Below, one piece after another: positions 200-49,931 of a stretch of 64,000 nucleotides of DNA (position 1 is the stretch's first letter; each line of letters opens with the position of its first letter). The DNA comes from Rhizobiaceae bacterium (GTDB taxonomy: Bacteria; Pseudomonadota; Alphaproteobacteria; Rhizobiales; Rhizobiaceae). The notes beneath the pieces are model-generated. The model searched no databases. It worked only from the letters and a program-made list of their open reading frames with translations, and was not told the origin of the DNA. A program made the position numbers and the translations under genes. The stretch spans positions 124,001 to 188,000 of the forward strand of contig JAILWO010000005.1 of assembly GCA_025698895.1 (NCBI GenBank). Direction: 5' to 3'.

Positions 200-215
200 T
201 CTAACACCTGTTAGA
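200..215. promoter_or_regulatory. Operator site A (TetR-type palindrome)
   Basis: TCTAACA-CC-TGTTAGA, perfect 7-bp arms. It lies between the 3' end of the AMACR-like gene and the start of the left-edge gene, 24 bp before that start, so it most likely controls the left-edge gene. Confidence 0.75.
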
Positions 216-265
216 TTAATGGACCACGCTGCCACCGTCAATGGTTCGGCGTTCTTGGCGGTGTC

Positions 266-18941: not shown

Positions 18942-18970
18942 AATCTAACGCACGTTAGAAAAATGCGCAA
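18942..18970 (-). promoter_or_regulatory. Promoter overlapped by operator C
   Basis: On the minus strand TTGCGC (18970-18965), a 17-nt spacer and TAGATT (18947-18942). Same geometry as the promoter at operator B. Drives the SDR-Liv-ligase-ETF operon. Confidence 0.55.
18944..18959. promoter_or_regulatory. Operator site C (TetR-type palindrome)
   Basis: TCTAACG-CA-CGTTAGA, perfect arms but with G/C in place of A/T at the innermost position. 50 bp upstream of the SDR start. Confidence 0.72.
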
Positions 18971-21385: not shown

Positions 21386-21421
21386 GTCAGCCCTCCCTGG
21401 TACTCACGAAAGCAAGCATAA

Positions 21422-21437
21422 TCTAACATATGTTAGA
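21422..21437. promoter_or_regulatory. Operator site D (TetR-type palindrome)
   Basis: TCTAACA-TA-TGTTAGA, a fully symmetric 16-mer including the centre, extended to 18 bp by flanking A and T. 37 bp upstream of the CaiB start. The -35 is not recognisable here. Confidence 0.82.
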
Positions 21438-21654
21438 TTTGAAGGAGGGAATCTACGCGAAGGCCGCAAGAAAGTGATGGGGCGAAGCGGGCGAGTCACG
21501 GATCGCCCGTTCGCTCGATAGGTCGCCTCGCCGGCTGAATGAAGCCGTGCGGCGGCATTTCGGCCAGGACGCCACAAGGCGAAAGCCATCGCCCTCGAAA
21601 CGCGGACACCATCTTTGGTCTCCGCATCGTTCGCGGTCGAGAAGGGACACTCCA

Positions 21655-28565: not shown

Positions 28566-28593
28566 TAACTAACACTTGTTAGGTTATTTCCAA
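28566..28593 (-). promoter_or_regulatory. Promoter overlapped by operator E
   Basis: Minus strand TTGGAA (28593-28588), 16-nt spacer, TAGTTA (28571-28566). Reads into the TetR-carboxylase operon. Confidence 0.5.
28568..28583. promoter_or_regulatory. Operator site E (TetR-type palindrome)
   Basis: ACTAACA-CT-TGTTAGG: the inner CTAACA/TGTTAG is perfect, the outermost pair differs from consensus. It begins 29 bp upstream of the TetR start. Confidence 0.72.
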
Positions 28594-30762: not shown

Positions 30763-30814
30763 GTCTCTCTCCCGCTTCCATCGGCCACGTTCCAACGCCG
30801 ACGCCGGACCATTT

Positions 30815-30830
30815 TCTACCAGTTGTTAGA
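30815..30830. promoter_or_regulatory. Operator site F (TetR-type palindrome)
   Basis: TCTACCA-GT-TGTTAGA, one mismatch between the arms. 53 bp upstream of the thiolase start. Confidence 0.65.
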
Positions 30831-30963
30831 TTTTAACACACTGGAACGCACGCCTGTCAACATCGCTGGTGAGGGAGACGTCCCCGGCACCCATCCGAGA
30901 TCAATCGCGGCAAGCGAGCGGAGGTATTGCTAACTTACGAACGATCTCTTGCCCGGCTTCCCA

Positions 30964-35122: not shown

Positions 35123-36730
35123 TCACAGGCGGAATATCCCGTAGTGCGGATCGTCAATCGGAGCATTAAGTGCGGCAGAGATCGACATCGCCAAAGCATT
35201 TCTGGTGTCGACGGGATCGAGGATGCCGTCATCCCAAATCTCGGAGGTCGAGGTATAGGCCTCCACGTCGCGCTTGTAGCGCTCCAGCACCGGTTCTCGG
35301 ATCGCGGCGATCTCCTCGTCGGTCAGTTCTTTGCCTTCGCGTTGAAGCTGCCGGATCTTGACGTCGGCCATAGTGTTGGCGGCCTGGTCGGCACCCATCA
35401 CGCCGATTTCGGCCTGCGGCCACATGAACAGCGTACGCGCATCCCAGGCCCGCCCGCACATGCCGTAATTACCCGCCCCGTACGAGGCATTGGCGATCAC
35501 TGTGAATTTCGGCACGACCGAGCCGCCCTGCGCCATGAGCATCTTGGCGCCGTCCTTGGCGATACCGCGCTCTTCGTACTCGCGGCCCACCATGTAGCCG
35601 GTGATGTTCTGGAAGAAGACCAGCGGCGTGCGGTTCTGGTTGCAAAGTTGCATGAAATGCGCAGCCTTAAGCGAGCTGTCGTTGAACAACACCCCGTTGT
35701 TGGCCAGGATTCCCACCTTGTAGCCCCAGATATGGGCAAAGCCGCAGACAAGCGTGGTGCCGTAATCGGGCTGGTATTCGTGAAAGCGTGAGCCGTCCAC
35801 GATCCGCGCCAGCACCTCGCGCATGTCGAACTGGGTTTTCCGATCCTTGGGGATGATCCCATAGAGCTCCTTCGGATCGTAGTACGGCTCTTCGCAAGGC
35901 GCGGTCTCGATGATCGTCTTGGGCATCCGCTTCCACTGGCTGACAATCTCGCGTGCCAGAGAAAAGGCGTGCTGTTCGGTTGCAGCGCGATAATCGCCCG
36001 TGCCCGAGACCGAGGTGTGCATGACTGCCCCGCCAAGTTCCTGAACGCCGACTACTTCGCCGGTGGCTGCCTTGACCAGCGGCGGACCGCCCAGAAAGAT
36101 GGCGCCTGTGCCCTCGATGATGATGTTGTAATCGCTCAGCGTTGGCACATAGGCGCCGCCTGCGGTGCAATGCCCCCCGACCACTGCGATCTGGGGGATG
36201 TTGGCCTGGCTCAGCTTGACCTGGTTGCGAAACACCCGACCGCCCAGATACCTGTCCGGGAACACGCCGTGTTGGAGCGGCAGGAAGCCGCCGGCGCTGT
36301 CGCAGATGTGGATGACCGGCAGGCGGTTCTCCAGCGCGACATCCAGAAGCCGCACGATCTTCTTCACGGTCAGCGGATACCAGGCCCCGCCCTTGACGCT
36401 GGCATCGTTGGCATGAATGGCGACTTCGCGCCCTTGTACGATACCGATGCCCGTCACCACGGCGGCACCGGGCACCGCCCCGTCATATTCGCGACATGCG
36501 GCGAGGGTGGAAAACTCCAGGAACGGCGTGCCGGGGTCCAGCAGCAGCTTCAGCCGCTCACGCACGCCCAGTTTGTTCTGGCGTGCCAGGCGGTCGTTGT
36601 CCCGTTGGGGCCGCTCGAAACGCGCCGCGTGCTGGCGGGTGTGAAACTCCTTCAGCCGTGCGGACATGGCGGCGAAGTTTGCCTTGTAGTCGGGGGCGTT
36701 CGTGTCGATCTGGCTTTCGATCCGGCGCAT
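35123..36730 (-). CDS. Acyl-CoA carboxylase carboxyltransferase subunit (AtuC/geranyl-CoA type candidate)
   Basis: 535 aa. Carboxyltransferase landmarks HANDASVKGGAWYPLTVKK, GGHCTAGGAYVPTLSD, GGPPLVKAATGEVVGVQELG and YGAGNYGMCGRAWD are intact. ATG 36730 follows GGAGGACTGACC right after the biotin-carrier stop. It forms a carboxylase with the separate biotin carboxylase and carrier proteins encoded just upstream. Association with an AtuA-family gene and isovaleryl/citronellyl-type dehydrogenases suggests carboxylation of a 3-methyl-branched enoyl-CoA such as geranyl-CoA; sequence alone does not fix the substrate. Confidence 0.88.
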   Translation of the reverse strand: MRRIESQIDTNAPDYKANFAAMSARLKEFHTRQHAARFERPQRDNDRLARQNKLGVRERLKLLLDPGTPFLEFSTLAACREYDGAVPGAAVVTGIGIVQGREVAIHANDASVKGGAWYPLTVKKIVRLLDVALENRLPVIHICDSAGGFLPLQHGVFPDRYLGGRVFRNQVKLSQANIPQIAVVGGHCTAGGAYVPTLSDYNIIIEGTGAIFLGGPPLVKAATGEVVGVQELGGAVMHTSVSGTGDYRAATEQHAFSLAREIVSQWKRMPKTIIETAPCEEPYYDPKELYGIIPKDRKTQFDMREVLARIVDGSRFHEYQPDYGTTLVCGFAHIWGYKVGILANNGVLFNDSSLKAAHFMQLCNQNRTPLVFFQNITGYMVGREYEERGIAKDGAKMLMAQGGSVVPKFTVIANASYGAGNYGMCGRAWDARTLFMWPQAEIGVMGADQAANTMADVKIRQLQREGKELTDEEIAAIREPVLERYKRDVEAYTSTSEIWDDGILDPVDTRNALAMSISAALNAPIDDPHYGIFRL

Positions 36731-36732
36731 GG

Positions 36733-37236
36733 TCAGTCCTCCTCCGGAGCCAACTGGGCAAGGACGTCCTTCAGCCCGAAACTGTCGCCCGCGGCAAACG
36801 GGATTTCGGCAACCACACCGTCGCGCGGGGCGGCAAGGGTGGTTTCAAGCTTCATGCTTTCGATGACCAGAAGCGGCTGGCCCGCGGCAACGATGTCTCC
36901 CGGTTTGACCGCCACCGAGACGACGACCCCCGGCATCGGCGCCACAATCCGATCGTCGCTCGCGCCGCCATCGCTTCCGGCAAGACGCTCGGCGGGATCG
37001 GCACGCCCGACTTCGTAGGTACGACCGTCCATGTGCACAAATGTCGACTCGGGGCCAGCGGCTAGACGGACGTCGCGGACAAGGCCCCTCGCCCGCAAGA
37101 CAAAACCGCCCGGCGAAGTCGTCGGGTCCAATCGGCAGGGCAGCACGCCCTCGGGGGTATTCAGTACAAACCGGCTGCCGTCATGGGCGAGCCAGCATTC
37201 GGTCTCTTCGCCGCCGATCTGAAATATCCTCCGCAT
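36733..37236 (-). CDS. Biotin carboxyl carrier protein (separate BT/BCCP subunit)
   Basis: 167 aa. The last 75 residues form a biotinyl domain (VAPMPGVVVSVAVKPGD, ESMKLETT with the biotinylated Lys); the first 90 look like the BT/linker domain usually fused behind biotin carboxylase. ATG 37236 shares a base with the biotin carboxylase stop (TGATG) and follows GGAGAAACTG. In most methylcrotonyl- and geranyl-CoA carboxylases this part is fused to the biotin carboxylase; here a stop/start junction separates them, with coupled translation keeping stoichiometry. Confidence 0.88.
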   Translation of the reverse strand: MRRIFQIGGEETECWLAHDGSRFVLNTPEGVLPCRLDPTTSPGGFVLRARGLVRDVRLAAGPESTFVHMDGRTYEVGRADPAERLAGSDGGASDDRIVAPMPGVVVSVAVKPGDIVAAGQPLLVIESMKLETTLAAPRDGVVAEIPFAAGDSFGLKDVLAQLAPEED

Positions 37237-38705
37237 CAGTTTCTCCAACCACCCATCTTGCGGTGCATATCTGATATCTGCATCACTTCGGCCACCAGCC
37301 TTTCGTCCGACAGGGCGGCAACCGCCATCAGCAGGTCGTCCACATTCTCGCCCGGCGCGGTCAATGCATCCGCCTGCTCGGCCAGGAAACCGGTCGAGAC
37401 GTCGCCCGACGCGAAATCGGGATGGGCCAGGATCGCATCCAGATAGCCGGTGTTGGTCGTTACACCGAGGATCACGTAGTTTTGCACCGCGTGACGCGCA
37501 CGGGCGATGGCCTGCGCACGATCCGATCCATGCACGATCAGCTTGGACAGCATCGGGTCGAAATCGGTCGTCACCTTACCGCCGTCCAGGATGCCGCTGT
37601 CCACACGAACCCCCTCGCCCCGTGGTTCGTCCAGCAGCAGGATATTCCCGATCGAGGGGCGGAAATCGGCCGTTGCATCCTCGGCGCAGATGCGCAGCTC
37701 GATCGAGTGGCCCGTCTGCGGAATGTCGGCTTGGGCGGCGCTCAGCCCCTCTCCCGTCGCAATGCGTAGCTGCTCGGCCACCAGGTCGAAGCCCGTCACC
37801 ATCTCGGTCACGGGATGTTCGACCTGAAGGCGGGTGTTCATTTCCAGGAAATAGAAGGTACCGTCCTGAGCGCAGATGAACTCGACCGTCCCGGCACCGC
37901 GGTAGTTGACGGCGCGGGCAATCCCGGCGGCGGTTTCGCAGATGTCCAGGCGTTGTTCGGGCGAAAGCGCCGGAGACGGCGTTTCCTCTATGATCTTCTG
38001 GAATCGGCGCTGGATCGAGCATTCGCGCTCCCAGAAGTGGACCACATTGCCCTTCCCGTCCCCCATCACCTGAACCTCGATATGGCGCGGGCGTTCGATA
38101 TACCGTTCGACAAACAGCCGGCCATCTCCGAAATAGCGCTTGCCCTCGCGCCGTGCGGCCTCGATCTCCGCCTCCAGCGCGGCATCCGCGCGCACCACGC
38201 GCATTCCTTTTCCGCCGCCGCCTGCCGAAGGCTTGATCAGCAGTGGATAGCCCACGGCACGGGCGCGTTCGATAAAGGTCGCGGGGCCGTCATCCTCAAT
38301 GGCCGACGGGGCGACGGGAAATCCGCGCTCTTCCACAAAGGCCCGTGCGCGTACCTTGTCGCCCATCAGGTCGATGACATCGGAGGTCGGGCCGACGAAG
38401 GTCACTCCCGCTTTTTCCAGCGCGGCCACGAAGCCCGCGTTTTCCGACAGAAAACCGTAGCCGGGATGCACCGCGTCCGCGCCGATCCGTTTTGCAACCT
38501 CGACAATCTGCGGGATGTCGAGATAGGCGGCCACGGGCGTGGGCCCATCGATGGTCACAACCTCATCCGCGATGACATGGGCTGGCCCCTCCTGCTCGGA
38601 TGCATGGCGCAGCACGGCGGTCTCGAGGCCGCGTGCCTTGGCGGTGCGCAGGACGCGCGCCGCGATCTCGCCGCGATTGGCGACCAGAAGTTTTGAAATG
38701 GTCAT
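37236..38705 (-). CDS. Biotin carboxylase subunit of acyl-CoA carboxylase
   Basis: 489 aa, ending after the biotin carboxylase C-terminal domain and lacking the biotinyl domain. ISKLLVANRGEIAARVLRTA opens the preATP-grasp domain; LIKPSAGGGGKGMRVVRA is the ATP-binding glycine loop; EMNTRLQVEHPVTEMVTG is the catalytic core. Loads CO2 from bicarbonate and ATP onto biotin. ATG 38705; ribosome site weak, 12 bp after the AtuA-family stop, so expression may depend on coupling. Third component set: with the carrier and carboxyltransferase downstream. Confidence 0.9.
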   Translation of the reverse strand: MTISKLLVANRGEIAARVLRTAKARGLETAVLRHASEQEGPAHVIADEVVTIDGPTPVAAYLDIPQIVEVAKRIGADAVHPGYGFLSENAGFVAALEKAGVTFVGPTSDVIDLMGDKVRARAFVEERGFPVAPSAIEDDGPATFIERARAVGYPLLIKPSAGGGGKGMRVVRADAALEAEIEAARREGKRYFGDGRLFVERYIERPRHIEVQVMGDGKGNVVHFWERECSIQRRFQKIIEETPSPALSPEQRLDICETAAGIARAVNYRGAGTVEFICAQDGTFYFLEMNTRLQVEHPVTEMVTGFDLVAEQLRIATGEGLSAAQADIPQTGHSIELRICAEDATADFRPSIGNILLLDEPRGEGVRVDSGILDGGKVTTDFDPMLSKLIVHGSDRAQAIARARHAVQNYVILGVTTNTGYLDAILAHPDFASGDVSTGFLAEQADALTAPGENVDDLLMAVAALSDERLVAEVMQISDMHRKMGGWRN

Positions 38706-38717
38706 GGGCTTGTTATC

Positions 38718-40517
38718 TCAGCTGGGGTTCGAGGCGTTCAGCCCGTCGCGCGCGGCCAGATCGGCCGGCACAGGTATTTGGATATCGAGGAGCATCTGTG
38801 CGAAGCCCTTGCCCTGCGGGTCGATCCTGACCGATGCGATGCCGCCGCCGCCCAGCGAGTCGTGCAGCAGGAAGTTCAGTGCATGAATGCCGGGCAGTTC
38901 GAACCGCTCGACCGGTCCGTTGCAGAGATGCGCAAAGTAGTCCTTCACGGTCTCTTCGGTCAGCGCCGAGCGGATATAGGGCAAATACCCCGGCTTGCGC
39001 GCGATCACGCCGATATTGGCGATGTTGCCCTTGTCGCCTGAGCGGCCCCAGGCGAGTTCGACCAGGCGCACCATCACCGCGCGGGGACCGGCCTCGCGGC
39101 CTTCCACCGCCGCCGCGGAGGAAGCATCAAGTCGCACCGCCTCGGCTGCAATGGTGACGGGCACGTCTTTGCCGTCGACCTCGACCGCGATCGGGGTGTC
39201 GGCCTTGTCCTGCAAGAAGGAGAAGAGACGGACCACCGGCTGCACCTTTGGCCGACCGGCGAAGAAACCGGTCAGCCCCTGCGCAGAGGAGACCGCCATC
39301 GGCGCGATCTCTCCGGCGAAGATGTTCAACGCATCGCGGTCATCATGGGTCACGCCGATCTTCAGCACCACCTCGCGCGTGCGGGCGCGGGCGTTGGCGC
39401 CATAGGCGGCCTCGGCGCCCAGCACCTCCACGCTGACCTGCCGGAAATCACCGAGGTTGCGGTCGCGGAAAATGCGGCGGCAGCGGGTCAGAATGGCCTC
39501 GGCAACACGTTCGGCCTTGGCAGGCGCGTCGATCGCGGCCAGCGTCAGCGTGGTGATCGCCCGCCAGCCGTCGGCATGGGTGGCCGACACCTTGTAGCTG
39601 TCGGTGCGTCCCAGCCCCCGCGCGCCCTTCACCGTCACCCGGTCGGGCCCCACCTGCTCCAGTGTCACCTGCGACCAGTCGCAGATCACATCGGGCAGGA
39701 CGTAGCGCTGCGGATCGCCGATCTCGTAGAGCATCTGCTCGCCGACCGAGGCCGGCACCACCAGCCCGCCGGTATCCGGCGTCTTGGTCATGATGAAGCT
39801 GCCGTCTTCCGACACTTCGACAATCGGCATGCCCATATCGTCCCAGCCCGGCACCTCCCGCCAATCGGTGAAATTGCCGCCCGTGCCCTGCGGGCCGCAT
39901 TCGATCAGGTGGCCGGCCAGCGAGCCTTGGCTGAGCTTGTCCCAATCGTCGTCTTTCCAGCCGAACTCATGCATCAGCGGCCCAAGCGCCACAGCACTGT
40001 CAGCGCAGCGGCCGGTCACCACGATCTCGGCACCCGCATCGAGGGCGGCCGCAATCGGCCGCGCGCCGAGATAGGCGTTCATGCTCATCGGCTTGGCCGG
40101 GAAAGGCGCGCCCGAAAACATCTCGGTCACGTCGCGGGCGCGGATCTCGTCCGCGCGGCCCAGCAGATCATCACCCAGCACGACGCCGATCGAAATGTCG
40201 ATGCCCGCCGCCGCCGCCGCCTTGGCCAGCGCCTCGCGGCAGCCGCGCGGATTGACCCCGCCGGCATTCGCGACAACCTTGATCCCCTTGCGCTTGAGCT
40301 CTGGCAATAAAGGCGCAACTGCCTGGACAAAGTCCGGCGCATAACCCGCTTCCGGCGACTTCGTCCGCGCCCGCGCAAGCAGCGACATCGTGATCTCGGC
40401 AAGATAGTCGAAGACCAGATAATCGATGTCGCCCTTCGTCACCAGTTGGCCAACCGCCTCGGGCGTGTCGCCCCAGAACCCCGAGGCGCAGCCGATGCGC
40501 ACAGTTCGCCCAGTCAT
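38718..40517 (-). CDS. atuA: AtuA-family protein (DUF1446, acyclic terpene utilisation)
   Basis: 599 aa; ATG 40517 behind GGGAGG. The N-terminal DUF1446 domain starts VRIGCASGFWGDTPEAVGQL and contains VVANAGGVNPRGCREAL and VTGRCADSAVALGPLMHEFGW; the C-terminal AtuA-like domain has AWGRSGDKGNIANIGVIARK and the final SLGGGGIASVRIDPQGKG. AtuA proteins are required for growth on citronellol/geraniol in Pseudomonas, but the enzymatic role is not established. First gene of the minus-strand carboxylase operon, divergent from the dehydrogenase operon, with operator G in between. Confidence 0.88.
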   Translation of the reverse strand: MTGRTVRIGCASGFWGDTPEAVGQLVTKGDIDYLVFDYLAEITMSLLARARTKSPEAGYAPDFVQAVAPLLPELKRKGIKVVANAGGVNPRGCREALAKAAAAAGIDISIGVVLGDDLLGRADEIRARDVTEMFSGAPFPAKPMSMNAYLGARPIAAALDAGAEIVVTGRCADSAVALGPLMHEFGWKDDDWDKLSQGSLAGHLIECGPQGTGGNFTDWREVPGWDDMGMPIVEVSEDGSFIMTKTPDTGGLVVPASVGEQMLYEIGDPQRYVLPDVICDWSQVTLEQVGPDRVTVKGARGLGRTDSYKVSATHADGWRAITTLTLAAIDAPAKAERVAEAILTRCRRIFRDRNLGDFRQVSVEVLGAEAAYGANARARTREVVLKIGVTHDDRDALNIFAGEIAPMAVSSAQGLTGFFAGRPKVQPVVRLFSFLQDKADTPIAVEVDGKDVPVTIAAEAVRLDASSAAAVEGREAGPRAVMVRLVELAWGRSGDKGNIANIGVIARKPGYLPYIRSALTEETVKDYFAHLCNGPVERFELPGIHALNFLLHDSLGGGGIASVRIDPQGKGFAQMLLDIQIPVPADLAARDGLNASNPS

Positions 40518-40624
40518 CGCAACCTCCCTGTCGCCCGGTCCATTCGGGTGGACGCCGATGGCAAGCTTCCGTCTTTCCTCCCAAGCGCATGCCCAAAAAA
40601 AAGACACACGCAGCTCGACACCAC

Positions 40625-40653
40625 TTGAAACGTTTTCTAACATATGTTTGATT
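40625..40653 (+). promoter_or_regulatory. Promoter overlapped by operator G, towards the dehydrogenases
   Basis: TTGAAA (40625-40630), 17-nt spacer, TTGATT (40648-40653). The -10 is weak but the spacing equals that at operators B and C. Confidence 0.45.
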
Positions 40654-40661
40654 TTGATCAA
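40634..40661 (-). promoter_or_regulatory. Promoter overlapped by operator G, towards the AtuA gene
   Basis: Minus strand TTGATC (40661-40656), 16-nt spacer, TAGAAA (40639-40634). Together with the plus-strand promoter it forms a face-to-face pair sharing one operator. Confidence 0.45.
40636..40651. promoter_or_regulatory. Operator site G (TetR-type palindrome)
   Basis: TCTAACA-TA-TGTTTGA, one mismatch (A to T in the right arm). Lies between the divergent AtuA/carboxylase and dehydrogenase operons, 44 bp before the plus-strand start. Confidence 0.75.
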
Positions 40662-40695
40662 TAGGCAAGTTGCGCAGCCATCGGGAGGATCAAAG

Positions 40696-41910
40696 ATGAA
40701 CGTCCAGGCCGGGCCAGGCATGGCCGCGCTCGCGGCCATAAAGGCCAACTATTCGCTGACGCCCGAACAACGGCAGATCGTGGATCACGTGGATCGGGTT
40801 GCGCGCGAGATTCTTCATCCATTGCAAGAGAAGATGGATGCGGAAGAATGGTGGCCCGAGGATTTGTTTCGGCAGATGGGCGAGCTCGGGCTGCTGGGCA
40901 TTACCGCGCCCGAGGAGCTGGGCGGCAGCGGCCAGAACGAATTTACCCAGGCCCTGGTCTCAGAGACCATCTCGAAATGGAACCCGGCAGTCGGCCTTTC
41001 GCACGGCGCGCACGACAATCTGTGCCTCAACAACATCCTCAGGAACGGCTCGGATGAGCAGGTGCGGAAATACGTTCCCGGCCTGTGCTCGGGCGAGCTG
41101 GTCGGCGCACTTGGGCTGACCGAGCCCGGCGCGGGCTCGGACGCGCTGGGCTCGATGGCCACCAGCGCCGTGCGCGATGGCAATGATTATGTGATCAACG
41201 GCTCCAAGATCTACATTACCAACGGCCCGATCGCGGATGTCATCCTGGTTTACACAAAAACCGATAAGGCGAAGGGCGCCAAGGGCATCTCGGCTTTCAT
41301 CGTGGAGACCGACAATCCGGGCTTCAAGGTGGCGCAGAAGCTCGACAAGATGGGCTTCCGTGGCTCGCCCACGGGCGAACTGGTGTTCGAGGACTGCCGC
41401 GTGCCCGCCTCGGCCATGATCGGGGCCGAGAACAGCGGCGTTTCGGTGGTGATGAGCGGGCTCGACCTGGAGCGGGCGATGGTCGCTTCGGTTTGCGTGG
41501 GGATGGCCGAAAGGGCTCTGGAGCTGGCGCTCGACTACGCCAGGATCCGCGAACAGTTCGGCAAGCCGATCGCCAGCTTTCAGATGGTGCAGTCGAAGCT
41601 CGCGGAAATCTATGTCGAGGTCGAAACCGCACGCGCCTTCGGCTATCGCGCGCTCGCGGCTTGCGTCGGCCTGCCCAAGGGCGCCGGTGGACGCGGCGAA
41701 ATCCATAAGCTCACCGCCGCCGCCTGCCTTTACGCTGGCGAAGCTTTCAACAAGGCCGTGACCGAAGCGTGCCATATCCATGGCGGCTCGGGCTACATGC
41801 AGGATACCGAGATCAACCGGCTCTACCGCGCCAACAAGCTGCTGGAAATCGGTGCAGGCACCAGCGAGGTGCGAAAAATTATCATTGCCGAAGAACTGCT
41901 GCGCGCCTGA
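40696..41910 (+). CDS. Acyl-CoA dehydrogenase, isovaleryl/citronellyl-CoA type
   Basis: 404 aa from ATG 40696 (GGGAGGATCAAAG). SHGAHDNLCLNNI, LTEPGAGSDALGSMATSA and FRGSPTGELVFEDCRVP are typical of isovaleryl-CoA dehydrogenase relatives. The YEGT Glu is replaced (EIGAGTSEVRK), exactly as in isovaleryl-CoA dehydrogenase, and the base is expected to be the Glu of SGLDLERAM. It should desaturate a 3-methyl-branched acyl-CoA. First of two tandem paralogues in a plus-strand operon opposite the AtuA/carboxylase operon; citronellyl-CoA dehydrogenase (AtuD) is the natural comparison. Confidence 0.9.
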   Translation: MNVQAGPGMAALAAIKANYSLTPEQRQIVDHVDRVAREILHPLQEKMDAEEWWPEDLFRQMGELGLLGITAPEELGGSGQNEFTQALVSETISKWNPAVGLSHGAHDNLCLNNILRNGSDEQVRKYVPGLCSGELVGALGLTEPGAGSDALGSMATSAVRDGNDYVINGSKIYITNGPIADVILVYTKTDKAKGAKGISAFIVETDNPGFKVAQKLDKMGFRGSPTGELVFEDCRVPASAMIGAENSGVSVVMSGLDLERAMVASVCVGMAERALELALDYARIREQFGKPIASFQMVQSKLAEIYVEVETARAFGYRALAACVGLPKGAGGRGEIHKLTAAACLYAGEAFNKAVTEACHIHGGSGYMQDTEINRLYRANKLLEIGAGTSEVRKIIIAEELLRA

Positions 41911-41925
41911 GCGAGGACACCAGCT

Positions 41926-43125
41926 ATGAACGAGCGATTGCGTAACGTCCCCGACCTGCCGACCCATTACCTGACAGAAGAGCAGCAGGCGCTGGCCGAT
42001 CAGGCCAGCAAGTTCTTCTTTTCCGAGTTTCATCACCTGAACGCCGAAATGGACGACACCGACGACCTGTCGCCCTCCATCTTTCCCAAGCTGGGCGAGA
42101 TGGGCTATCTGGGCCTCAACGTGGCGCCTGAATTCGGCGGTGCGGGGCTCGATTTCACCTCGGCCTGCATCATCACCGAGGAATTGTCGCGCGCCTCGGC
42201 GGCGATCGGGCTGAGCCACGCGGCCCATGACAATCTTTGCGTCAACAACATCTACCGTAACGCCAATGACGATCTGCGGCGGAAGTATCTGCCGGGCCTC
42301 TGCGACGGCTCGCTGATCGGCGCGCTGGGCCTGACGGAGCCGGGCGCGGGATCGGATGCGCTCGGTTCGATGCGGACGACCGCCCGGAAGGACGGCGACC
42401 ACTACGTGCTCAACGGCTCCAAGATCTATATCACCAACGGCCCGATCGCCGATATCGTGCTGGTCTATGCCAAGACCTCGCCCGAGAAGGGCGCCAAGGG
42501 AATTTCCGCCTTCATCGTCGAGACCGACACACCGGGCTTCAAGGTGGCGCAGAAGCTCAACAAGATGGGGTTCCGCGGCTCGCCCACAGGCGAGTTGGTG
42601 TTCGAGGATTGCCGGGTGCCGGCGGCAAACATGGTGGGCAAGCTGGACGGCGGTGTGGCAGTGACCATGTCGGGGCTCGATCTTGAACGCGCCATCGTCT
42701 GCTTCAATGCGGTGGGCATCGCGCGCCGGGCATTGGAGATATCGATCGACTATGCCAAGACGCGCCAGCAGTTCGGCAAGCCGATCGCCAATTTCCAGAT
42801 GGTGCAGGCCATGCTGGCCGAGATGTATACCGCGATCGAGGCCGCGCGAAGCCTGTCGCTGCGCACCGCCGCCATGTGCGAGGGTCTGGAAGAAGGCGAA
42901 GGGGGGCGCGGCGAGATCCACAAGCTGACGGCCGCGGCTATTTTCAAGGCCGCGGCGGCGACCTCCTTCGTGCTGGATCGCGCGGTGCAGATTCACGGCG
43001 GATCGGGCTACATGCGCGACACCGAGGTCAACCGCCTCTATCGGACGGGCCGGGTACTCGAGGTGGGTGCGGGTACGCAGGAGGTGCGCAAACTCATCAT
43101 CTCCGGCGAACTTCTGAAGAACTGA
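41926..43125 (+). CDS. Acyl-CoA dehydrogenase, isovaleryl/citronellyl-CoA type (tandem paralogue)
   Basis: 399 aa, 15 bp after its paralogue. The same landmarks recur: SHAAHDNLCVNNIYRN, LTEPGAGSDALGSMRTTA, FRGSPTGELVFEDCRVP, GLDLERAIV (catalytic Glu) and EVGAGTQEVRKLII. The C-terminal 250 residues are clearly closer to the preceding protein than to the other dehydrogenases in the window, indicating local duplication; the N-termini differ more. The two could act on successive intermediates or form a heteromer. Confidence 0.9.
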   Translation: MNERLRNVPDLPTHYLTEEQQALADQASKFFFSEFHHLNAEMDDTDDLSPSIFPKLGEMGYLGLNVAPEFGGAGLDFTSACIITEELSRASAAIGLSHAAHDNLCVNNIYRNANDDLRRKYLPGLCDGSLIGALGLTEPGAGSDALGSMRTTARKDGDHYVLNGSKIYITNGPIADIVLVYAKTSPEKGAKGISAFIVETDTPGFKVAQKLNKMGFRGSPTGELVFEDCRVPAANMVGKLDGGVAVTMSGLDLERAIVCFNAVGIARRALEISIDYAKTRQQFGKPIANFQMVQAMLAEMYTAIEAARSLSLRTAAMCEGLEEGEGGRGEIHKLTAAAIFKAAAATSFVLDRAVQIHGGSGYMRDTEVNRLYRTGRVLEVGAGTQEVRKLIISGELLKN

Positions 43126-43135
43126 GGCCTGGTAC

Positions 43136-43993
43136 ATGGCAGAAAAACAAGTGCAGAGCCGTTACGCCCCCGACCTCATGGCAGGTCAGGTGGCTCTCGT
43201 GACCGGCTCGGGCTCCGGCATGGGCCGCGCCACAGCGCTCGAAATGGCTTCCTGCGGGGCCAGACTGGCGCTATTCGCCCGTCGCGAGGAGCCGCTTCGG
43301 GAAACCGCCGAGATGATCCGCGCGATGGGGGGCGAAGCCTTCGTCGTGCCGGGCGACACTCGCGACGAGAAGAGCGTCGAGTCGGCAATGCTGAAGATCA
43401 AAGATCACTACGGTCGGCTCGACGTGCTTGTGAACAATGCCGGCGGCCAGTATATCGCCGCCGCCCGCGACATCACCAACAAAGGGTTCGAGGCGGTTAT
43501 CCGCAACAATCTGATCGGCTCGTGGCAGATGACGCGCGCCGCCGCCGACCACTTCATGTTCGAGAACGGCGGCTCGATCGTATTCGTAACCGCGATCTCG
43601 ACCCGCACCGCACTGACGGGCTTCGCCCATACCGTTGCCGCGCGCGCAGGCGTCACAGGCTTGATGAAGACGCTTGCCGCCGAATGGGGTGAATACCGCA
43701 TCCGCCTGAACTGCGTAGCTCCCGGTACGATCAAGACAGAGGCGCTCGGCCGCTACCCGATATCGCCGGAAAAATGGCACGAGCTAAACCGGTCAGTTCT
43801 TAACCGCATGGGGGCGGCGGAAGACGTCGCGGGGACGATCATTTTTCTTGCCTCCAGGCTCGGTTCCTTCATTACCGGCGAGGATGTGTATGTGGACGGG
43901 GGAGAAACCCTGCACATGGGCCACGACGCCCGCGACATGATCCATCGTGACATGTTCCAGGAGCGTCAGCGGGGGGACGGAAAGAATGAGTGA
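43136..43993 (+). CDS. SDR family oxidoreductase, 2,4-dienoyl-CoA reductase-like (AtuB/AtuG candidate)
   Basis: 285 aa. TGSGSGMGRATALEMA is the dinucleotide motif and NNAGGQY the structural Asn region. The catalytic YxxxK is absent: the aligned segment is FAHTVAARAG, with Thr and Arg at those positions, as in dienoyl-reductase-like SDRs. ATG 43136 lies 10 bp after the dehydrogenase stop. Ends in a charged tail of about 25 residues after the usual GG-E end. Acts probably on a conjugated acyl-CoA in the Atu-like pathway. Confidence 0.85.
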   Translation: MAEKQVQSRYAPDLMAGQVALVTGSGSGMGRATALEMASCGARLALFARREEPLRETAEMIRAMGGEAFVVPGDTRDEKSVESAMLKIKDHYGRLDVLVNNAGGQYIAAARDITNKGFEAVIRNNLIGSWQMTRAAADHFMFENGGSIVFVTAISTRTALTGFAHTVAARAGVTGLMKTLAAEWGEYRIRLNCVAPGTIKTEALGRYPISPEKWHELNRSVLNRMGAAEDVAGTIIFLASRLGSFITGEDVYVDGGETLHMGHDARDMIHRDMFQERQRGDGKNE

Positions 43994-44789
43994 ATCCGTC
44001 GTCCTGCTCGAGATTGCCGATCGCATCGCAACGGTGACGCTCAACGACCCCGACAGGCGCAATCCCGTCACCGGCAATGAGATGATCGCGGGGCTGCTCG
44101 ACGCGTTCGACCAGGCGCAGCGCGATCCCGGGGTGAGTGTCATGATCCTGACCGGCGCAGACCCGGCCTTCTGCGCCGGCGGCGATATCAAGGAAATGTC
44201 GGACCCCGAAAGCGTGTTCCGCAAGAATCCGCTGGCCGCGGCGGACAGCTACATCACCGGCATTCAGCGGATACCGCTCGCGCTCTACAATCTCGACATA
44301 CCTACGATCGCGGCTGTCAACGGCCCGGCCGTGGGCGCGGGCTGCGACCTGACGATGATGTGCGACATGCGCATCGCATCGGAGAAGGCAAAATTCGGCG
44401 AGGTGTTCTTGAACCTCGGAATCATTCCTGGCGACGCAGGTACCTGGTTCCTACTGCGGCGGCTCGGTCACCAGAAAGCGGCCGAACTGACATTCACTGG
44501 ACGGATGGTCGGGGCCGAGGAGGCGGTGGAGCTAGGAATGGTGCTTGAGGTGGTGCCGCATGGCGATCTCATGGCGCGGGCGCGGGAGCGAGCGGCCGTA
44601 ATTGCGGCCAAGCCGCCCCGCGCACTGCGCGTCGCCAAGCGGCTGATGCGCAATGCCGAACGCATGGACCTGCCGGATTTCCTGAATACCGCCGCCGCGT
44701 ACCAGGCACTGATGCACCAGACCAAGGACCACCACGAAGCTCTTGCCGCGTTCCTCGAGAAACGAAAACCTGCATTCTTTGGCGACTGA
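43986..44789 (+). CDS. Enoyl-CoA hydratase/isomerase family protein (AtuE-position crotonase)
   Basis: 267 aa from ATG 43986, overlapping the SDR stop by 8 bp, with GGGGGGACGGA upstream. GADPAFCAGGDIKEM and VNGPAVGAGCDLTMMCD give the oxyanion hole. At the first hydratase Glu site it has Phe (GEVFLNLG), while the second Glu is kept (AAELTFTG) and an Asp follows PG in IIPGDAG. In the Atu pathway the crotonase after carboxylation is isohexenylglutaconyl-CoA hydratase (AtuE); gene position fits, active-site residues leave isomerase possible. Confidence 0.85.
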   Translation: MSESVVLLEIADRIATVTLNDPDRRNPVTGNEMIAGLLDAFDQAQRDPGVSVMILTGADPAFCAGGDIKEMSDPESVFRKNPLAAADSYITGIQRIPLALYNLDIPTIAAVNGPAVGAGCDLTMMCDMRIASEKAKFGEVFLNLGIIPGDAGTWFLLRRLGHQKAAELTFTGRMVGAEEAVELGMVLEVVPHGDLMARARERAAVIAAKPPRALRVAKRLMRNAERMDLPDFLNTAAAYQALMHQTKDHHEALAAFLEKRKPAFFGD

Positions 44790-45291
44790 CAGATCGGCCT
44801 TACAGTTGACCCATCCGGACCAGAAGAAACTAGATCAGATCGCCAGGATGTGGAACCATCGCGGACGTGGTCTGATTACCGAGATGAACCTGAAGATTGA
44901 AAAGGTGGCGATTGATGGCGTTCTGGTTAGGATGCCGTTCAACCCCTCTTTCTGCGCCGACGAGGTCAAAACCCTGCTGCATGGCGGGGTGTTAACGGCC
45001 CTTCTGGACAGCGTGTTCGGACTAGCGAATTTCGTGGCGATCGACGGGATCAGCAGCATGGCGACACTCGACCTCCGCGTCGACTATCTGCGCCCGGCGA
45101 AATCGCGGGCCGACGTCATGGTGCGCGCAGAATGCATTCGGCAGACCCGGCATATCGCGTTCAATTCGGGCAGGATCTGGTTCGATGAGCCGGATCAGGC
45201 CGAAGTGGCCCGTGGCGCCGCCAGTTTTGCGCTCACACGGGGCGAGGTCAGCATTTTCGATGCAATGACGCAAAGCAGGTCCTCCAAATGA
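44779..45291 (+). CDS. PaaI-type hotdog thioesterase
   Basis: About 170 aa; no ATG is available before the fold, so the start is a TTG, taken at 44779 (overlapping the crotonase by 11 bp); TTG 44806 is an alternative and both have poor ribosome sites. LLHGGVLTALLDSVFGLA is the hotdog helix with the HGG and Asp of acyl-CoA thioesterases, and LRVDYLRPAKSRAD the following strands. Releases CoA from an acyl-CoA, perhaps to rescue trapped CoA or excrete a product. Confidence 0.8.
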   Translation: MATDRSALQLTHPDQKKLDQIARMWNHRGRGLITEMNLKIEKVAIDGVLVRMPFNPSFCADEVKTLLHGGVLTALLDSVFGLANFVAIDGISSMATLDLRVDYLRPAKSRADVMVRAECIRQTRHIAFNSGRIWFDEPDQAEVARGAASFALTRGEVSIFDAMTQSRSSK

Positions 45292-45689
45292 CGCCGGATC
45301 TCGCAACTCAGCAGCTCAGGAAAGTACCGTTCTTCCAGTTTCTCGACTTCATGATCACCGAGCTTGCTGAAACGCATGCGGCCGCGACGATGCCGTTCGC
45401 CGAACGACTGATCGGAAATCCGATCATGGAATACTACCATGGCGGAATCATCGCGAGCTTCATGGAGGCGGTCGCCGCGATCAGCGTAAGCCATGGTCCC
45501 GATCTGCAGCCACCCAAGCCGATCAATCTGACGGTTGACTACTTGCGCCCGGCGGTCAAAGGGGCCCTGATGGCCGAAGCCACAGTGACGCGGAAGGGCA
45601 AGCGCATGGCAAGCGTGCGGACGGCCTGTTGGCAGGATGACGCCTCCCGGCCGGTGGCCGAAGGGTTGTATCATTTTCTATTGGTCTGA
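45288..45689 (+). CDS. PaaI-type hotdog thioesterase (second copy)
   Basis: 133 aa starting in an ATGA overlap with the preceding thioesterase. EYYHGGIIASFMEAVAAI carries the HGG motif, with Glu where the partner has Asp; INLTVDYLRPAVKGALM follows. Two adjacent small hotdog genes of different length often give a heteromeric thioesterase. Last gene of the plus-strand operon; convergent with the double TetR gene 24 bp away. Confidence 0.85.
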   Translation: MTPDLATQQLRKVPFFQFLDFMITELAETHAAATMPFAERLIGNPIMEYYHGGIIASFMEAVAAISVSHGPDLQPPKPINLTVDYLRPAVKGALMAEATVTRKGKRMASVRTACWQDDASRPVAEGLYHFLLV

Positions 45690-45713: not shown

Positions 45714-47021
45714 TTATGTGATCTTCGGGGCTGAGCCGTTGGGCGAAATACCGTCCAGCAGCATTTTGATGAGCAGATCCGTGAAAGCTGAAAGCGTATA
45801 GTATCCGCGTTGGTCGCCCTTGCCGGGATCGAACCATTCGACCGTCCAATTCAGCGCGCCCAGCATGGCCTGCCGTAGCGGAACCACCTTGATGTCGGAG
45901 CGCAAGGCTCCGGCCGTCTGCGCCTCGCGCAACAGCCGATCCCAGACCTTCGCGTATTGGTGTCGAACAGGCCGATGGCGCGAGCGGATCCCTTCCGGCA
46001 GCATCCCATAGATGCGGATGTTGGCGGAGGTAAACTCGCTGACACGGAACAAATATGCCATGTGCGTCGCGATTGCCGTCGCGATCCGGTTTCTATGATC
46101 TTCCTTGTTCGGCCATATGGCGGCGGCATGGCTGACGCCGTTCAAGAGATCACGCAGGCCCAGGTCGAGCACCTCATCGAGAATTTCCTCCTTCGAGCCG
46201 AAATGGTAGTAGACGCTGCCTGCCTCAAGGCCCGCTTCCGATGCGACACGTCGTATTGTAGCGGCCTTGTAGCCGCTCTCTCGCAAGATTCGCGCGGCCG
46301 TGCGAAGGATTTGATGGCGGGTTCGTTCGGCCTTCCCCGCTGGTTCGAGTCCATCTGTTAGGTCAAGAGATTCGACCGATTTTCTGACCGTTCCGCCACG
46401 TTTGGTGCACATGCCGTCGAGCAGCAGTTTCGACAAGCGTTCCGATAGCAGACTGACCGGATAACGTTCGCTGTCGTACCATTCCGCTGTCCAGTTCATA
46501 GCTCCGAGGATGAACTGGCTGACCAGGGTGACCGAGATGTCACCACGCAGATCGTCCTGATGGTGCTGCAAAAATGATCGCCAGAGCTGCGCATAGGCCT
46601 CTCGCAAGGGACGATGCGCTCTGCGGCGCTTGTCCGACAGCATAGGGAAGTTCCTGATATTCGCCGAAGTGAAATCACTTTCTTTCAAAAGGAAACAAAG
46701 GTGAGTGTCGACAAGCTGCGCGAACGTTTTCCGGAATGGGTCACCTTCCGCCGCCGACCGTTCGACGATCCCCCGAATTTGCTCGTAGAGTTGTCTAACC
46801 CCAATATCGAGGACCTCGTCCAGGATCTGATCCTTCGAGCCGAAATGATAGTAGATGCTACCGGCTTCCAGGTTCGCCGCCTCGGCGATCCGCCGCATGG
46901 TGGTCGCGTTGTATCCCTCTTTGCTAAATAGCTTCGCCGCCGCCAGGAGGATCGCGCGACGCGTCTGCACCGATTTCCCGTATGGCTCGTCGCCGGGGCT
47001 ATGGGGGAGGATTTCTTCCAT
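45714..47021 (-). CDS. Double TetR regulator: two complete TetR units in one polypeptide
   Basis: 435 aa, about twice a normal TetR. Unit 1 (about 18-206): RRAILLAAAKLFSKEGY, RIAEAANLEAGSIYYHFGSK, then ligand domain with DFTSANIRNF and GAMNWTAEWYDSERY. A linker of about 25 residues follows. Unit 2 (about 232-425): HQILRTAARILRESGY, RVASEAGLEAGSVYYHFGSK, EFTSANIRIYGMLP and GALNWTVEWFDPGKG. Both HTHs and both ligand domains look intact, with no internal stop. ATG 47021 has a GAGAG-type site. TetR proteins normally act as homodimers; here one chain may act as a built-in dimer. Operator H lies 46 bp upstream. Confidence 0.93.
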   Translation of the reverse strand: MEEILPHSPGDEPYGKSVQTRRAILLAAAKLFSKEGYNATTMRRIAEAANLEAGSIYYHFGSKDQILDEVLDIGVRQLYEQIRGIVERSAAEGDPFRKTFAQLVDTHLCFLLKESDFTSANIRNFPMLSDKRRRAHRPLREAYAQLWRSFLQHHQDDLRGDISVTLVSQFILGAMNWTAEWYDSERYPVSLLSERLSKLLLDGMCTKRGGTVRKSVESLDLTDGLEPAGKAERTRHQILRTAARILRESGYKAATIRRVASEAGLEAGSVYYHFGSKEEILDEVLDLGLRDLLNGVSHAAAIWPNKEDHRNRIATAIATHMAYLFRVSEFTSANIRIYGMLPEGIRSRHRPVRHQYAKVWDRLLREAQTAGALRSDIKVVPLRQAMLGALNWTVEWFDPGKGDQRGYYTLSAFTDLLIKMLLDGISPNGSAPKIT

Positions 47022-47057: not shown

Positions 47058-47085
47058 TTGAGGTAATTCGAACAAGCGTTAGAAT
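47058..47085 (+). promoter_or_regulatory. Promoter overlapped by operator H
   Basis: TTGAGG (47058-47063), 16-nt spacer, TAGAAT (47080-47085), reading towards the BadH-like SDR. Confidence 0.5.
47068..47083. promoter_or_regulatory. Operator site H (TetR-type palindrome, most degenerate)
   Basis: TCGAACA-AG-CGTTAGA: arms agree at five of seven positions. Sits between the divergent double-TetR gene and the BadH-like SDR. Confidence 0.55.
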
Positions 47086-47134: not shown

Positions 47135-47896
47135 ATGCGCGGACTGAAAGGCAAGAGAGTAATCGTCACGGGTGGCGGAAGCGGAATCGGGCGGGCGATC
47201 TGCACCCGCTTCGCCGAGGAAGGAGCCGAGGTTGCGGTTTTCGACCTCAATGAAGAAGGTGCCCGGCAAACCGTCGGAACGATCGAAGATGCAGGCGGCA
47301 AGGCTCGTGCTTACACCGTCGACATCACCGACCGCAAGGCAGTGGACGCCGCAGTGGCCGAGTTCGAGGCCGGCGGGCCGATCGACGTTCTCGTTAACAA
47401 TGCCGGATGGGATGAGATCAAGCCGTTCCTCGAGACCGATCTTGATCTGTGGAAGAAGATCATAGACATCAACCTCTACGGCCCTCTTCATATGCATCAT
47501 GCTGTTCTTCCGGGCATGGTAAGGAATGGGTCCGGCCGCGTCGTGAACATCAGTTCGGATGCGGGCCGCGTCGGCTCCTCGGGCGAGGCGGTCTATTCGG
47601 CCTGCAAAGGTGGCATCATTTCCTTTACCAAGACTGTCGCGCGGGAATTGGCCCGCAAGGGCATTCAGCTCAACGCGGTCGCGCCCGGTCCGACAGACAC
47701 CCCGCTATTCGCAGAAGTCGCCAAGGGCGAAGCCGGAGAGAAGATTGCGGAAGGCCTTAAACGGGCGATCCCCATGAGACGTCTCGCCCAGCCGACGGAC
47801 TATCCCGGGATTGTGTGTTTCCTCGCCTCGGACGATGCCGGATTCATAACCGGACAGGTCATTTCCGTATCGGGCGGGCTGTCAATGCACGGTTGA
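47135..47896 (+). CDS. SDR family oxidoreductase, BadH-like (2-hydroxycyclohexanecarboxyl-CoA dehydrogenase type)
   Basis: 253 aa from ATG 47135 (AAGGAGAAACGG). VTGGGSGIGRAICTRFAEEG, NNAGWDEIKPF, MHHAVLPGMV, an intact active site (SSDAGRVGSSGEAVYSACK) and FITGQVISVSGGLSMHG follow the pattern of BadH, the NAD-dependent 2-hydroxycyclohexanecarboxyl-CoA dehydrogenase of Rhodopseudomonas cyclohexanecarboxylate breakdown. It should oxidise a 3-hydroxyacyl-CoA, possibly alicyclic. Divergent from the double TetR gene; followed by a strong terminator, so it may be a single-gene unit and a direct target of that regulator. Confidence 0.87.
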   Translation: MRGLKGKRVIVTGGGSGIGRAICTRFAEEGAEVAVFDLNEEGARQTVGTIEDAGGKARAYTVDITDRKAVDAAVAEFEAGGPIDVLVNNAGWDEIKPFLETDLDLWKKIIDINLYGPLHMHHAVLPGMVRNGSGRVVNISSDAGRVGSSGEAVYSACKGGIISFTKTVARELARKGIQLNAVAPGPTDTPLFAEVAKGEAGEKIAEGLKRAIPMRRLAQPTDYPGIVCFLASDDAGFITGQVISVSGGLSMHG

Positions 47897-47993: not shown

Positions 47994-49931
47994 ATGTTCG
48001 AGGCCGACCAAACCATCAAGGAAACAAGTACGCTCGCGGCATTCATGGACCGTTGTGGCGTTGCGAACTACGAGGAATTGGTCGAACGCGCAGACAGTGA
48101 CCCGGATTGGTTCTGGACGCAGATTCTCGACCTCACCCGCATTCGATTCGCCCGCCCGTACGACCGTCTGCGCGAGATCGGCGACGGACCGGAGAACATC
48201 CGCTGGGGAATCGGCGGCGCACTGAATCTCACCGAAACCTGTCTCGACGCGCACATCGAGAAGGGGCTCGGCGATAAGACAGCGATCGACTGGGTGGGCG
48301 AAGACGGCAGCCGCCAGCAATGGAGCTATTCCCGGCTTGCCGAGGAAGCCGCGCGCGTTGCCTCCGCCCTCTCGGCGCGTGGAGTGAGGCCCAGCCAGGG
48401 CGTCGGCATCTACATGCCGATGATCCCCGAAATCGAGGCCGCGCTTCTGGGCATCGCGCGGCTGGGCGCCGTAGCGGTCCCGCTATTTTCGGGGTTTGCG
48501 CCGCATGCCATCGTCACCCGCCTGAACGACGCCCGTGCCGTTGCCGTGCTGACTGCGGATGCGACGCCCCGGCGGGGCAAGCCGGTCTGGATGGAAGCCA
48601 CCCTGGCCGAGGCACTGGCGGAGGTGCCCTCGGTGCATACCGTGTTCAGCCTGCGGCGCTTCGGCGGCCCAGTGGCCGATCCGGCCCGCGATCTCGACTG
48701 GCAGGAAACCGTCGCTAAGGCCGACGCGACGCGGCCGGCGCATCCGGTGGAGACCGACGCACCGCTGCTCATCGCCTACACCTCGGGCACCACCGGCAAG
48801 CCCAAGGGGGTGGTTCACACGCATTTGGGCGTACAGGCCAAGGCCACGGCCGATTTTCTGCTGTGTCTCGATCTAAAGCCCGATGATCGGCATCTTTGGA
48901 TGACGGACATGGGTTGGGTGATGGGGCCCCTCACGCTGATTTCGGTGCTGCTTGCGGGCGCCACGTTGGTGCTCGCCGAAGGAGCGCCCTCGATGCCGGG
49001 CGATCCCTTCCGCCTACTGCGGCTGGCCGCCGAGAACAAAGTTACTCATATGGGCGTTGCCCCAACGCTGGTGCGGCAATTCATGACGCAGGATCCCGCG
49101 CCGCTGCGGGGGTACGATCTTTCCGCACTGCGTATCGTCGCCTCGACCGGAGAGCCCTGGACCGAAGATGCCTGGCTTTGGCACCTGGAGCATATCTGCC
49201 GGCACCACGCGGTACCGCTCAACATTTCGGGTGGAACCGAGCTCTTCGGCGCAATTCTTTCCTCGACCGTACTGCACGAGGTGAAGCCGGGTGGCTTTTC
49301 GGGTCAGGCGCTGGGCGTCGGTGCCAAGGTGCTGCGCGTGGACGGCAGCGAGGCTGCGCCGGGCGAGGTCGGCGAATTGGTCGTCACCCGGCCGCCGATG
49401 GGGCTGACGCCGACGATCTGGGGCGACAAAAAGCGCTATCTCGACACCTACTGGTCCACGTTTCCCGGCATCTGGCGCCATGGCGACTGGGCGCGGCGCG
49501 ATCCGGACGGCACCTGGTTTATCCTCGGCCGTTCCGATGACACGCTGAACATTGCCGGCAAGCGCATCGGGCCACCGGAGATCGAGGCGGCGCTGACCGA
49601 AACGGGGAAAGTTGTAGATGCAGCGGCGATACCCGTCCCCGACCCCATAAAGGGTACAACGGTGATTTGCATCTGCGTCACGGCGCCCGGTGTGACGCCC
49701 GATGACAGGCTCGTCGAGCAGCTCAAGGACCGCGTCGGCGAGGTGGTTTCGAGGCCCTTCCGCCCGAGCGAGATCCATTTCGTCGAGGCGCTGCCCAAGA
49801 CCCGCAGCATGAAGACGATGCGCCGGATCGTGCGCGCCGCCTTCCTGGACGAGGATCCGGGCGACCTCTCCTCGATCAGCAATCCCGAAACGATGGAGGC
49901 CATCGCGGCCCTGAGAAAGGACAAGCCATGA
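47994..49931 (+). CDS. AMP-dependent acyl-CoA synthetase (acetyl-CoA-synthetase-like, 645 aa)
   Basis: 645 aa ANL ligase with an N-terminal cap (SDPDWFWTQILDLTRIRF) as in acetyl/propionyl-CoA synthetases. P-loop IAYTSGTTGKPKGVVHTH, W-D-MGWVMG, ISGGTELFG in place of the usual YGxTE, HGDWARRDPDGTWFILGRSDD hinge and a C-terminal LPKTRSMKTMRR with the catalytic Lys. Activates a short or medium acid, possibly branched; in gene order it occupies the place of the Atu-cluster synthetase (AtuH). ATG 47994 has a weak ribosome site and lies directly behind a terminator, so it needs its own promoter or read-through. Confidence 0.88.
   Translation: MFEADQTIKETSTLAAFMDRCGVANYEELVERADSDPDWFWTQILDLTRIRFARPYDRLREIGDGPENIRWGIGGALNLTETCLDAHIEKGLGDKTAIDWVGEDGSRQQWSYSRLAEEAARVASALSARGVRPSQGVGIYMPMIPEIEAALLGIARLGAVAVPLFSGFAPHAIVTRLNDARAVAVLTADATPRRGKPVWMEATLAEALAEVPSVHTVFSLRRFGGPVADPARDLDWQETVAKADATRPAHPVETDAPLLIAYTSGTTGKPKGVVHTHLGVQAKATADFLLCLDLKPDDRHLWMTDMGWVMGPLTLISVLLAGATLVLAEGAPSMPGDPFRLLRLAAENKVTHMGVAPTLVRQFMTQDPAPLRGYDLSALRIVASTGEPWTEDAWLWHLEHICRHHAVPLNISGGTELFGAILSSTVLHEVKPGGFSGQALGVGAKVLRVDGSEAAPGEVGELVVTRPPMGLTPTIWGDKKRYLDTYWSTFPGIWRHGDWARRDPDGTWFILGRSDDTLNIAGKRIGPPEIEAALTETGKVVDAAAIPVPDPIKGTTVICICVTAPGVTPDDRLVEQLKDRVGEVVSRPFRPSEIHFVEALPKTRSMKTMRRIVRAAFLDEDPGDLSSISNPETMEAIAALRKDKP

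Follow-up and report, generated by a model that had tools for sequence, protein, structure and literature searches.

A double TetR gene in a single frame

The window, the whole 64,000-nucleotide stretch analyzed here, carries on its minus strand a gene for a 435-amino-acid (435-aa) protein, surrounded by genes for acyl-CoA metabolism and by copies of an operator-like sequence (Table 1). Pfam detected TetR_N (PF00440) in two stretches of the protein (117.9 bits for the whole protein against a cut-off of 24) and TetR_C_24 likewise in two stretches (94.3 bits against 26.4), and alignment of unit 1 with unit 2 gave 44% identity over 206 columns. According to the initial annotation, a single reading frame at this locus encodes a pair of complete TetR units, and the open reading frame, the Pfam matches, and the self-alignment confirm that description. 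The helix-turn-helix (HTH) scores above the curated cut-off and is accompanied by an all-helical C-terminal ligand/dimerization domain, as in the TetR family, and the polypeptide holds two such units, as in double TFRs of the Mce3R type. A match to NCBIfam NF041196 (ScbR-type autoregulator-binding factors) reached 152.4 against a cut-off of 150, a score that is the sum of both units. TetR_C_24 matched eight times in the window's own genome.

Table 1. Positions of the regulator gene, its parts, putative operators, and neighboring genes in the window
Feature	Position	Strand	Description
Operator-like site	198..217	.	Unlike half-sites ATTC/AATC
Operator-like site	3863..3882	.	Unlike half-sites TTTC/AATC
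Operator-like site	18942..18961	.	Unlike half-sites AATC/TTTC
Operator-like site	21420..21439	.	Perfect palindrome
Operator-like site	28566..28585	.	Upstream of single TetR P0002; probably P0002's own
Operator-like site	30813..30832	.	Unlike half-sites; lowest symmetry of the eight (6 of 10 pairs)
AtuA-like protein and biotin-dependent carboxylase subunits	35123..40748	-	Syntenic in relatives
Operator-like site	40634..40653	.	Between AtuA-like and acyl-CoA dehydrogenase genes
Two acyl-CoA dehydrogenases	40696..43125	+	Syntenic in relatives
SDR, enoyl-CoA hydratase, two hotdog thioesterases	43136..45689	+	Syntenic in relatives
Double TetR regulator gene	45714..47021	-	435 aa, single frame, ATG start
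TetR unit 2	45741..46337	-	Residues ~229-427; Pfam TetR_C_24 308-424, AF2 helices 230-423
HTH of unit 2	46200..46259	-	TIRRVASEAGLEAGSVYYHF, residues 255-274
Linker	46338..46406	-	Residues ~206-228 (~23 residues), low confidence in AF2 model
TetR unit 1	46407..46979	-	Residues ~15-205; Pfam TetR_N 24-70, AF2 helices 12-202, half-versus-half alignment
HTH of unit 1	46842..46901	-	TMRRIAEAANLEAGSIYYHF, residues 41-60
Putative operator, site H	47066..47085	.	Middle of 113-bp divergent promoter; half-sites ATTCGAAC and ATTCTAAC
SDR gene, BadH-like (2-hydroxycyclohexanecarboxyl-CoA dehydrogenase)	47135..47896	+	Divergent from regulator; likely target
Acyl-CoA ligase, acetyl-CoA synthetase-like	47994..49931	+	Likely target

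Relatives were collected from one genome per species. A total of 476 were confirmed as coding, and the best-scoring 80 (L011 to L090) were retained, a set biased toward fused proteins because the scoring favors full-length matches. All 80 carry both TetR units in one uninterrupted frame, and plasmid p1536_2 of Nitratireductor thuwali carries a 98.6% identical, 435-aa copy annotated as a single CDS. A hidden stop between the units, raised at the outset as a way in which the fusion might prove false, was looked for and not found; the intact frame in the best 80 of 476 relatives and in the plasmid copy excludes a sequencing error. Nor are homologues always encoded as two genes, since none of the 80 best relatives is split, although one-unit relatives do occur (L093, L095, and L131). 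Scanning residues 196 to 240 revealed no internal start codon with a ribosome-binding site. An assembly artifact or a split gene was rejected on these grounds; we found no evidence in favor of either, or of a product made as two proteins, and consider all of these extremely improbable.

Rhodobacteraceae and Roseobacter-type bacteria account for many of the best 80 relatives. In evenly drawn genomes, the family is uncommon. In an even draw at E 1e-60, with the window's own genome counted, 2 of 297 genomes of the order had a relative; at the class level the count was 4 of 385 (E 1e-60, own genome counted), one of the four having a single-unit relative only, and at the phylum level 2 of 398 (E 1e-45, own genome counted), one being a single-unit relative. 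The order of genome G559 had a relative in 10 of 25 genomes (E 1e-45), with 15 of 16 matches spanning both units.

Neighboring genes and putative operators

The divergent SDR scored 373.7 bits against BadH, below the cut-off of 431.2, and is called BadH-like here. Synteny was counted in the 55 relatives with more than 9 kb before the gene and more than 20 kb in total, a homologue being defined by at least 50% identity. Homologues of the BadH-like SDR occurred in 53 of these relatives and those of the ligase in 51; each hotdog protein was matched in 48, enoyl-CoA hydratase in 47, and AtuA and biotin carboxylase in 46 each. Both acyl-CoA dehydrogenases were found in 47, a count in which the two paralogues may cross-match. 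The AtuA, carboxylase, and BadH-like genes combine this conserved synteny with putative operators at both divergent promoters. The limonene ring-cleavage pathway proposed for Castellaniella includes a BadH-like dehydrogenase, according to the available text of PMC4109377, and the Pfam name of AtuA is acyclic terpene utilization. The BadH-like SDR and AtuA neighbors suggest that the substrate is likely to be a terpenoid or alicyclic acid in the form of its CoA ester.

The DNA of the catabolic cluster (35710 to 52298) is 99.3% identical to that of Aliihoeflea aestuarii and, over 16.6 kb, 92.9% identical to that of Enterovirga aerilata, which belongs to another genus. The cluster also occurs on a Nitratireductor plasmid typed as non-mobilizable, with MPF_T. 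This cross-genus identity and plasmid location indicate that the cluster was probably transferred horizontally in the recent past (compare L012, L013, and L181). Its right edge, 52298, is common to L012, L013, L014, and L084, and its left edge corresponds to the ends of the loci compared.

With two or fewer mismatches, the core TCTAACANNTGTTAGA occurred eight times in the window, against a mean of 0.05 in 100 shuffled versions. The whole genome contained 13 core matches, 10 of them in a 69-kb part of the window's contig; a reversed control pattern gave 8 genome-wide. Two of the 10, with unlike halves, lie just past the right end of the window (positions 188937 and 192791 of contig C5; L154). 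Upstream of the regulator, a 20-bp site was found in all 80 best relatives with 0 to 4 mismatches of 18, compared with 5 to 10 in 400 shuffled upstream regions, and many relatives have an operator-like site about 6.3 kb from the regulator, as the window has at 40634.

The single TetR P0002 (27906 to 28538) is 40% identical to unit 2, and the operator upstream of it shares the CTAAC/GTTAG core. Since P0002 has a like operator (28566), some of the eight window sites may be its own, and cross-talk between P0002 and the double TetR is possible. Near-symmetric sites likewise lie upstream of single TetR genes in L068, L071, L082, L083, and L086.

Predicted assembly and operator reading

An AlphaFold2 (AF2) model of the 435-aa protein, built from an alignment of 42 sequences, had a pLDDT of 85.4 and a pTM of 0.84. 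When the PDB library was searched with Foldseek, Mce3R of Mycobacterium tuberculosis (PDB 9b7y) ranked first (TM 0.73 by target, 417 columns). It was also first in VIA-align (Z 26.1, rmsd 4.1, 357 residues aligned, model residues 11 to 424), where the runner-up was an ordinary one-unit TetR chain (Z 18.3, 189 residues aligned). By sequence, with the family profile, Mce3R was only 15th. One-unit structure matches included the acyl-CoA-binding regulators AibR, with isovaleryl-CoA, and FadR, with acyl-CoA. Because Mce3R superposes over both units, the two units are predicted to be arranged as in a solved single-chain double TetR. The model match thus supports the covalent pseudo-dimer that the initial annotation had proposed, and we regard that interpretation as probably correct, bearing in mind that AlphaFold may favor the familiar TetR dimer interface regardless of the real assembly.

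The premise that homodimers of ~200-aa chains are the only known form of TetR does not stand, and the chain here has 435 aa and two units. According to the available text of PMC11667970, Mce3R is a natural single-chain double TetR, or double TFR, and 204 putative double TFRs in Actinomycetes are quoted there; the architecture is therefore already known and is not new here. The initial annotation also allowed for two ligands or a four-HTH dimer; in Mce3R, both halves of a chain contribute to one shared ligand domain, and the chains associate in pairs as a C2 dimer that binds two DNAs (PMC11667970, available text). Both proteins have two TetR units per chain of ~400 residues in the same predicted overall arrangement, and Mce3R, as described in that text, is a repressor linked to lipid-type catabolism, similar to the role proposed for the window regulator, with the HTHs of both units binding one operator, as we propose here also. 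The two differ in that identity in the structural alignment is 18%, that the Mce3R halves resemble distinct TFR subgroups whereas those of the window protein are close paralogues (44%), and that Mce3R sites are 25 bp and non-palindromic whereas the putative site here is a 20-bp near-palindrome (same source for Mce3R). In engineered single-chain Tet transregulators, as the available part of PMC1797012 describes them, two TetR domains joined head to tail by a linker also fold intramolecularly into one working unit, but these are man-made from the TetR of Tn10 and respond to a tetracycline-type ligand.

The reading that we consider likely is a single-chain pseudo-dimer repressor that binds a 20-bp near-palindrome and represses an acyl-CoA catabolic regulon until an acyl-CoA releases it. 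Units 1 and 2 would pack against each other in solution through their C-terminal helices, much as separate chains do in a normal TetR dimer, so that one 435-aa chain would offer two HTHs to one 20-bp near-palindrome, [AT]TTCTAACANNTGTTAGATT or a near variant. At site H, the protein would block both divergent promoters, one serving its own gene and the other serving the genes for the BadH-like SDR and the acyl-CoA ligase, and at further operator copies it would repress the remaining regulon. Release and derepression would probably follow when an acyl-CoA intermediate, which may derive from a terpenoid or alicyclic acid, enters the ligand domain; this ligand is a guess from the neighboring genes. 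AtuR of Pseudomonas aeruginosa, which we take to be an ordinary one-unit TetR, unlike the two-unit window protein, offers a similar setting. In the available text of PMC3511530, AtuR is a TetR-like repressor of its divergent neighbor in the atu cluster, and a title cited within that paper has it binding inverted repeats in the atuA-atuR intergenic region.

Both units have many invariant residues (alignment A1, 42 sequences), some within the HTH and others near FTSANIR in the ligand domain. Fused paralogues frequently lose one active site, which would favor a protein in which a single unit binds DNA or ligand and the other is a structural passenger. The invariant residues argue against such an arrangement, as does the helix-3 stretch AGSxYYHF, which is kept in both units of the best 80 relatives and varies only as I, V, or L at x and by three H/Y changes in unit 1, and we think a passenger unit quite unlikely. 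Both units could be active and yet pair between molecules (1 with 1′ and 2 with 2′); the resulting homodimer would have four HTHs and could span a pair of palindromic operators or the two arms of a loop. Several site copies spread across 69 kb, symmetric sites such as 21420, which paired like units would read, and the poor definition of the ~23-residue linker in the model would all suit this arrangement, but the AF2 model and the solved Mce3R both pair units within the chain, and the Mce3R C2 dimer rests on a separate, additional contact (PMC11667970, available text). We regard intermolecular pairing as an unlikely alternative to the single-chain pseudo-dimer.

The initial annotation had argued for asymmetric reading from different recognition helices and from site H as the least symmetric operator. 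The units of the window protein differ in helix 3 by I versus V only. Among the 80 relatives, they differ at the residue before helix 2 (Y, H, or N versus K), at one helix-2 residue (M versus L, M, or I), and at the residue two places ahead of the G in AGS (one unit has E in all 80, whereas the other has K in 51, E in 24, and Q in 5). The claim of different recognition helices therefore holds for helix 2 and its flanks but not for helix 3, and the stretches quoted for it are mostly helix 2. Site H has 7 symmetric pairs of 10, tied with four others of the eight sites, while the site at 30813 has 6. Since helix 3 hardly differs between the units and another site is less symmetric than H, the argument does not hold up in that form.

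The idea can be framed more broadly: the units would read different half-sites, the operator would be asymmetric by design, and the fusion would have been kept because of that. Removing the six sites upstream of single TetRs from 105 distinct sites left 99 distinct 32-mers, and in 88 of these, position 2 is A in one half and T in the other. Unlike halves also mark the regulator's own site in 68 of the 80 relatives, 53 of them having one orientation and 15 the opposite, and the unit differences before and in helix 2 and ahead of AGS point the same way. The remaining 12 relatives have own sites that are T/T (7), A/A (4), or C/A (1). Against the idea, all three kinds are represented among the own sites of more distant double TetRs; like-half sites also occur at L030 4293, L069 16899, L069 20605, and L088 3363. 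Orthologous sites are not independent, however. When 219 sites were clustered by flanking sequence into independent families, with two families of other bases set aside, those with mostly unlike halves numbered 7 of 11 (P = 0.27) or 5 of 8 (P = 0.36), neither being significant; this clustering is conservative because it lumped paralogous promoters (one cluster held 206 sites with tblastx). Single TetRs, too, have an unlike site upstream in 6 of 22 loci (L113, L114, L126, L128, L129, and L131); others of the 22 have T/T (L109, L119, L120, and L125), A/A (L118 and L136), or G or C at position 2 (L116 and L127), and in the remaining 8 no like site was found upstream. Site H itself is T/T, and 21420 is perfectly palindromic. 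Given these two sites, the unlike sites of single TetRs, the non-significant families, and the near identity of helix 3, we regard asymmetric reading as possible but doubtful. The operator set assembled here renders the question of half-site symmetry testable.

Descent of the two units

A search for other TetR-TetR fusions, which the initial annotation had envisaged, found them among the relatives, in Rhodococcus oxybenzonivorans, in genome G009, and in Mce3R. Three trees of halves were built, with Mce3R absent from the rows: a quick, 109-row tree comprising 28 of the best 80 relatives, the query, and others; a careful tree of 72 of those rows, from which L003 was dropped as a very long branch and the rest thinned; and a third tree with the Rhodococcus halves, of 65 rows (11 dropped from and 4 added to the 72-row tree). 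In the careful tree, the first halves formed one clade (100/97) and the second halves another (100/99), and the quick tree agreed. These separate clades point to one old duplication-fusion underlying the alphaproteobacterial family. The nearest one-unit relatives, L093 near the second halves and L131 near the first, are both alphaproteobacterial, and neither is firmly placed.

Two fusions fell outside this pattern. The halves of the G009 protein grouped together with L010 (99/91), outside both clades, and placement of its first half with the other first halves was rejected (p-AU 0.005). G009 is a draft genome, 84% complete, in which the gene lies on a short contig whose end truncates the first unit; L010 could represent another copy or belong to the same gene. 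The topology suggests that G009 probably represents a separate fusion in another alphaproteobacterium. Plasmid pRB98 of R. oxybenzonivorans likewise encodes a 440-aa single-chain double TetR (WP_230990348.1; L179 4980-6302), in an acyl-CoA setting like that of the window, adjoining acyl-CoA dehydrogenase and HMG-CoA lyase genes. Its halves were sisters (100/96), the second on a long branch, and a shared fusion, with its first half among the alphaproteobacterial first halves, was rejected (p-AU 1.2e-6). By this phylogenetic test, the Rhodococcus protein differs from the window protein in arising by a separate fusion.

What is new here, on the evidence of the trees, is that natural single-chain TetRs in Alphaproteobacteria form a family with its own duplication-fusion, and that one further fusion is of separate origin (Rhodococcus) and probably a second as well (G009). 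Among the results listed by searches of open-licence PubMed Central, no article described a double TetR from Proteobacteria. Once a homodimeric repressor has become a single chain, its halves are free to evolve apart. TetRs of acyl-CoA catabolism may have become single-chain pseudo-dimers several times (the alphaproteobacterial family, G009, Rhodococcus, and Mce3R if it is separate), with the HTHs of the old family then drifting to unlike half-sites and its operators becoming directional. We offer this scenario tentatively and think it rather unlikely as a whole; if it is true, operator symmetry tracks protein symmetry. The own-promoter sites of one-unit L093 and of the recent duplicate G009 are T/T, and each genome also has one unlike site (L093 2158; L173). 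With a similar operator core beside single, recently doubled, and long-doubled TetRs, several of which have the same target gene, the step from homodimer to pseudo-heterodimer is directly testable. The plasmid copies listed are labeled simply TetR or TetR/AcrR family, so for these relatives, regulons predicted on the assumption of symmetric operators and two-chain repressors may be off. These proteins also put natural single-chain TetRs on offer for synthetic biology.

Two adjacent TetRs of Rhodococcus pyridinivorans (L180) proved in the tree to be of a distant kind. A second double-TetR group, 40 to 44% identical, occurs in one alphaproteobacterial genus (L094, L100 to L103, L105, L106, and L108); its 4-kb loci contained no operator core with three or fewer mismatches, none lying within 1.5 kb, which counts against the mechanism proposed above. 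In L078 and L086, the tblastn match extends beyond the regulator frame, and in three relatives, a single TetR gene lies directly downstream of the double TetR gene (L056 2966-3613, L080 4043-4762, and L081 2296-2925).
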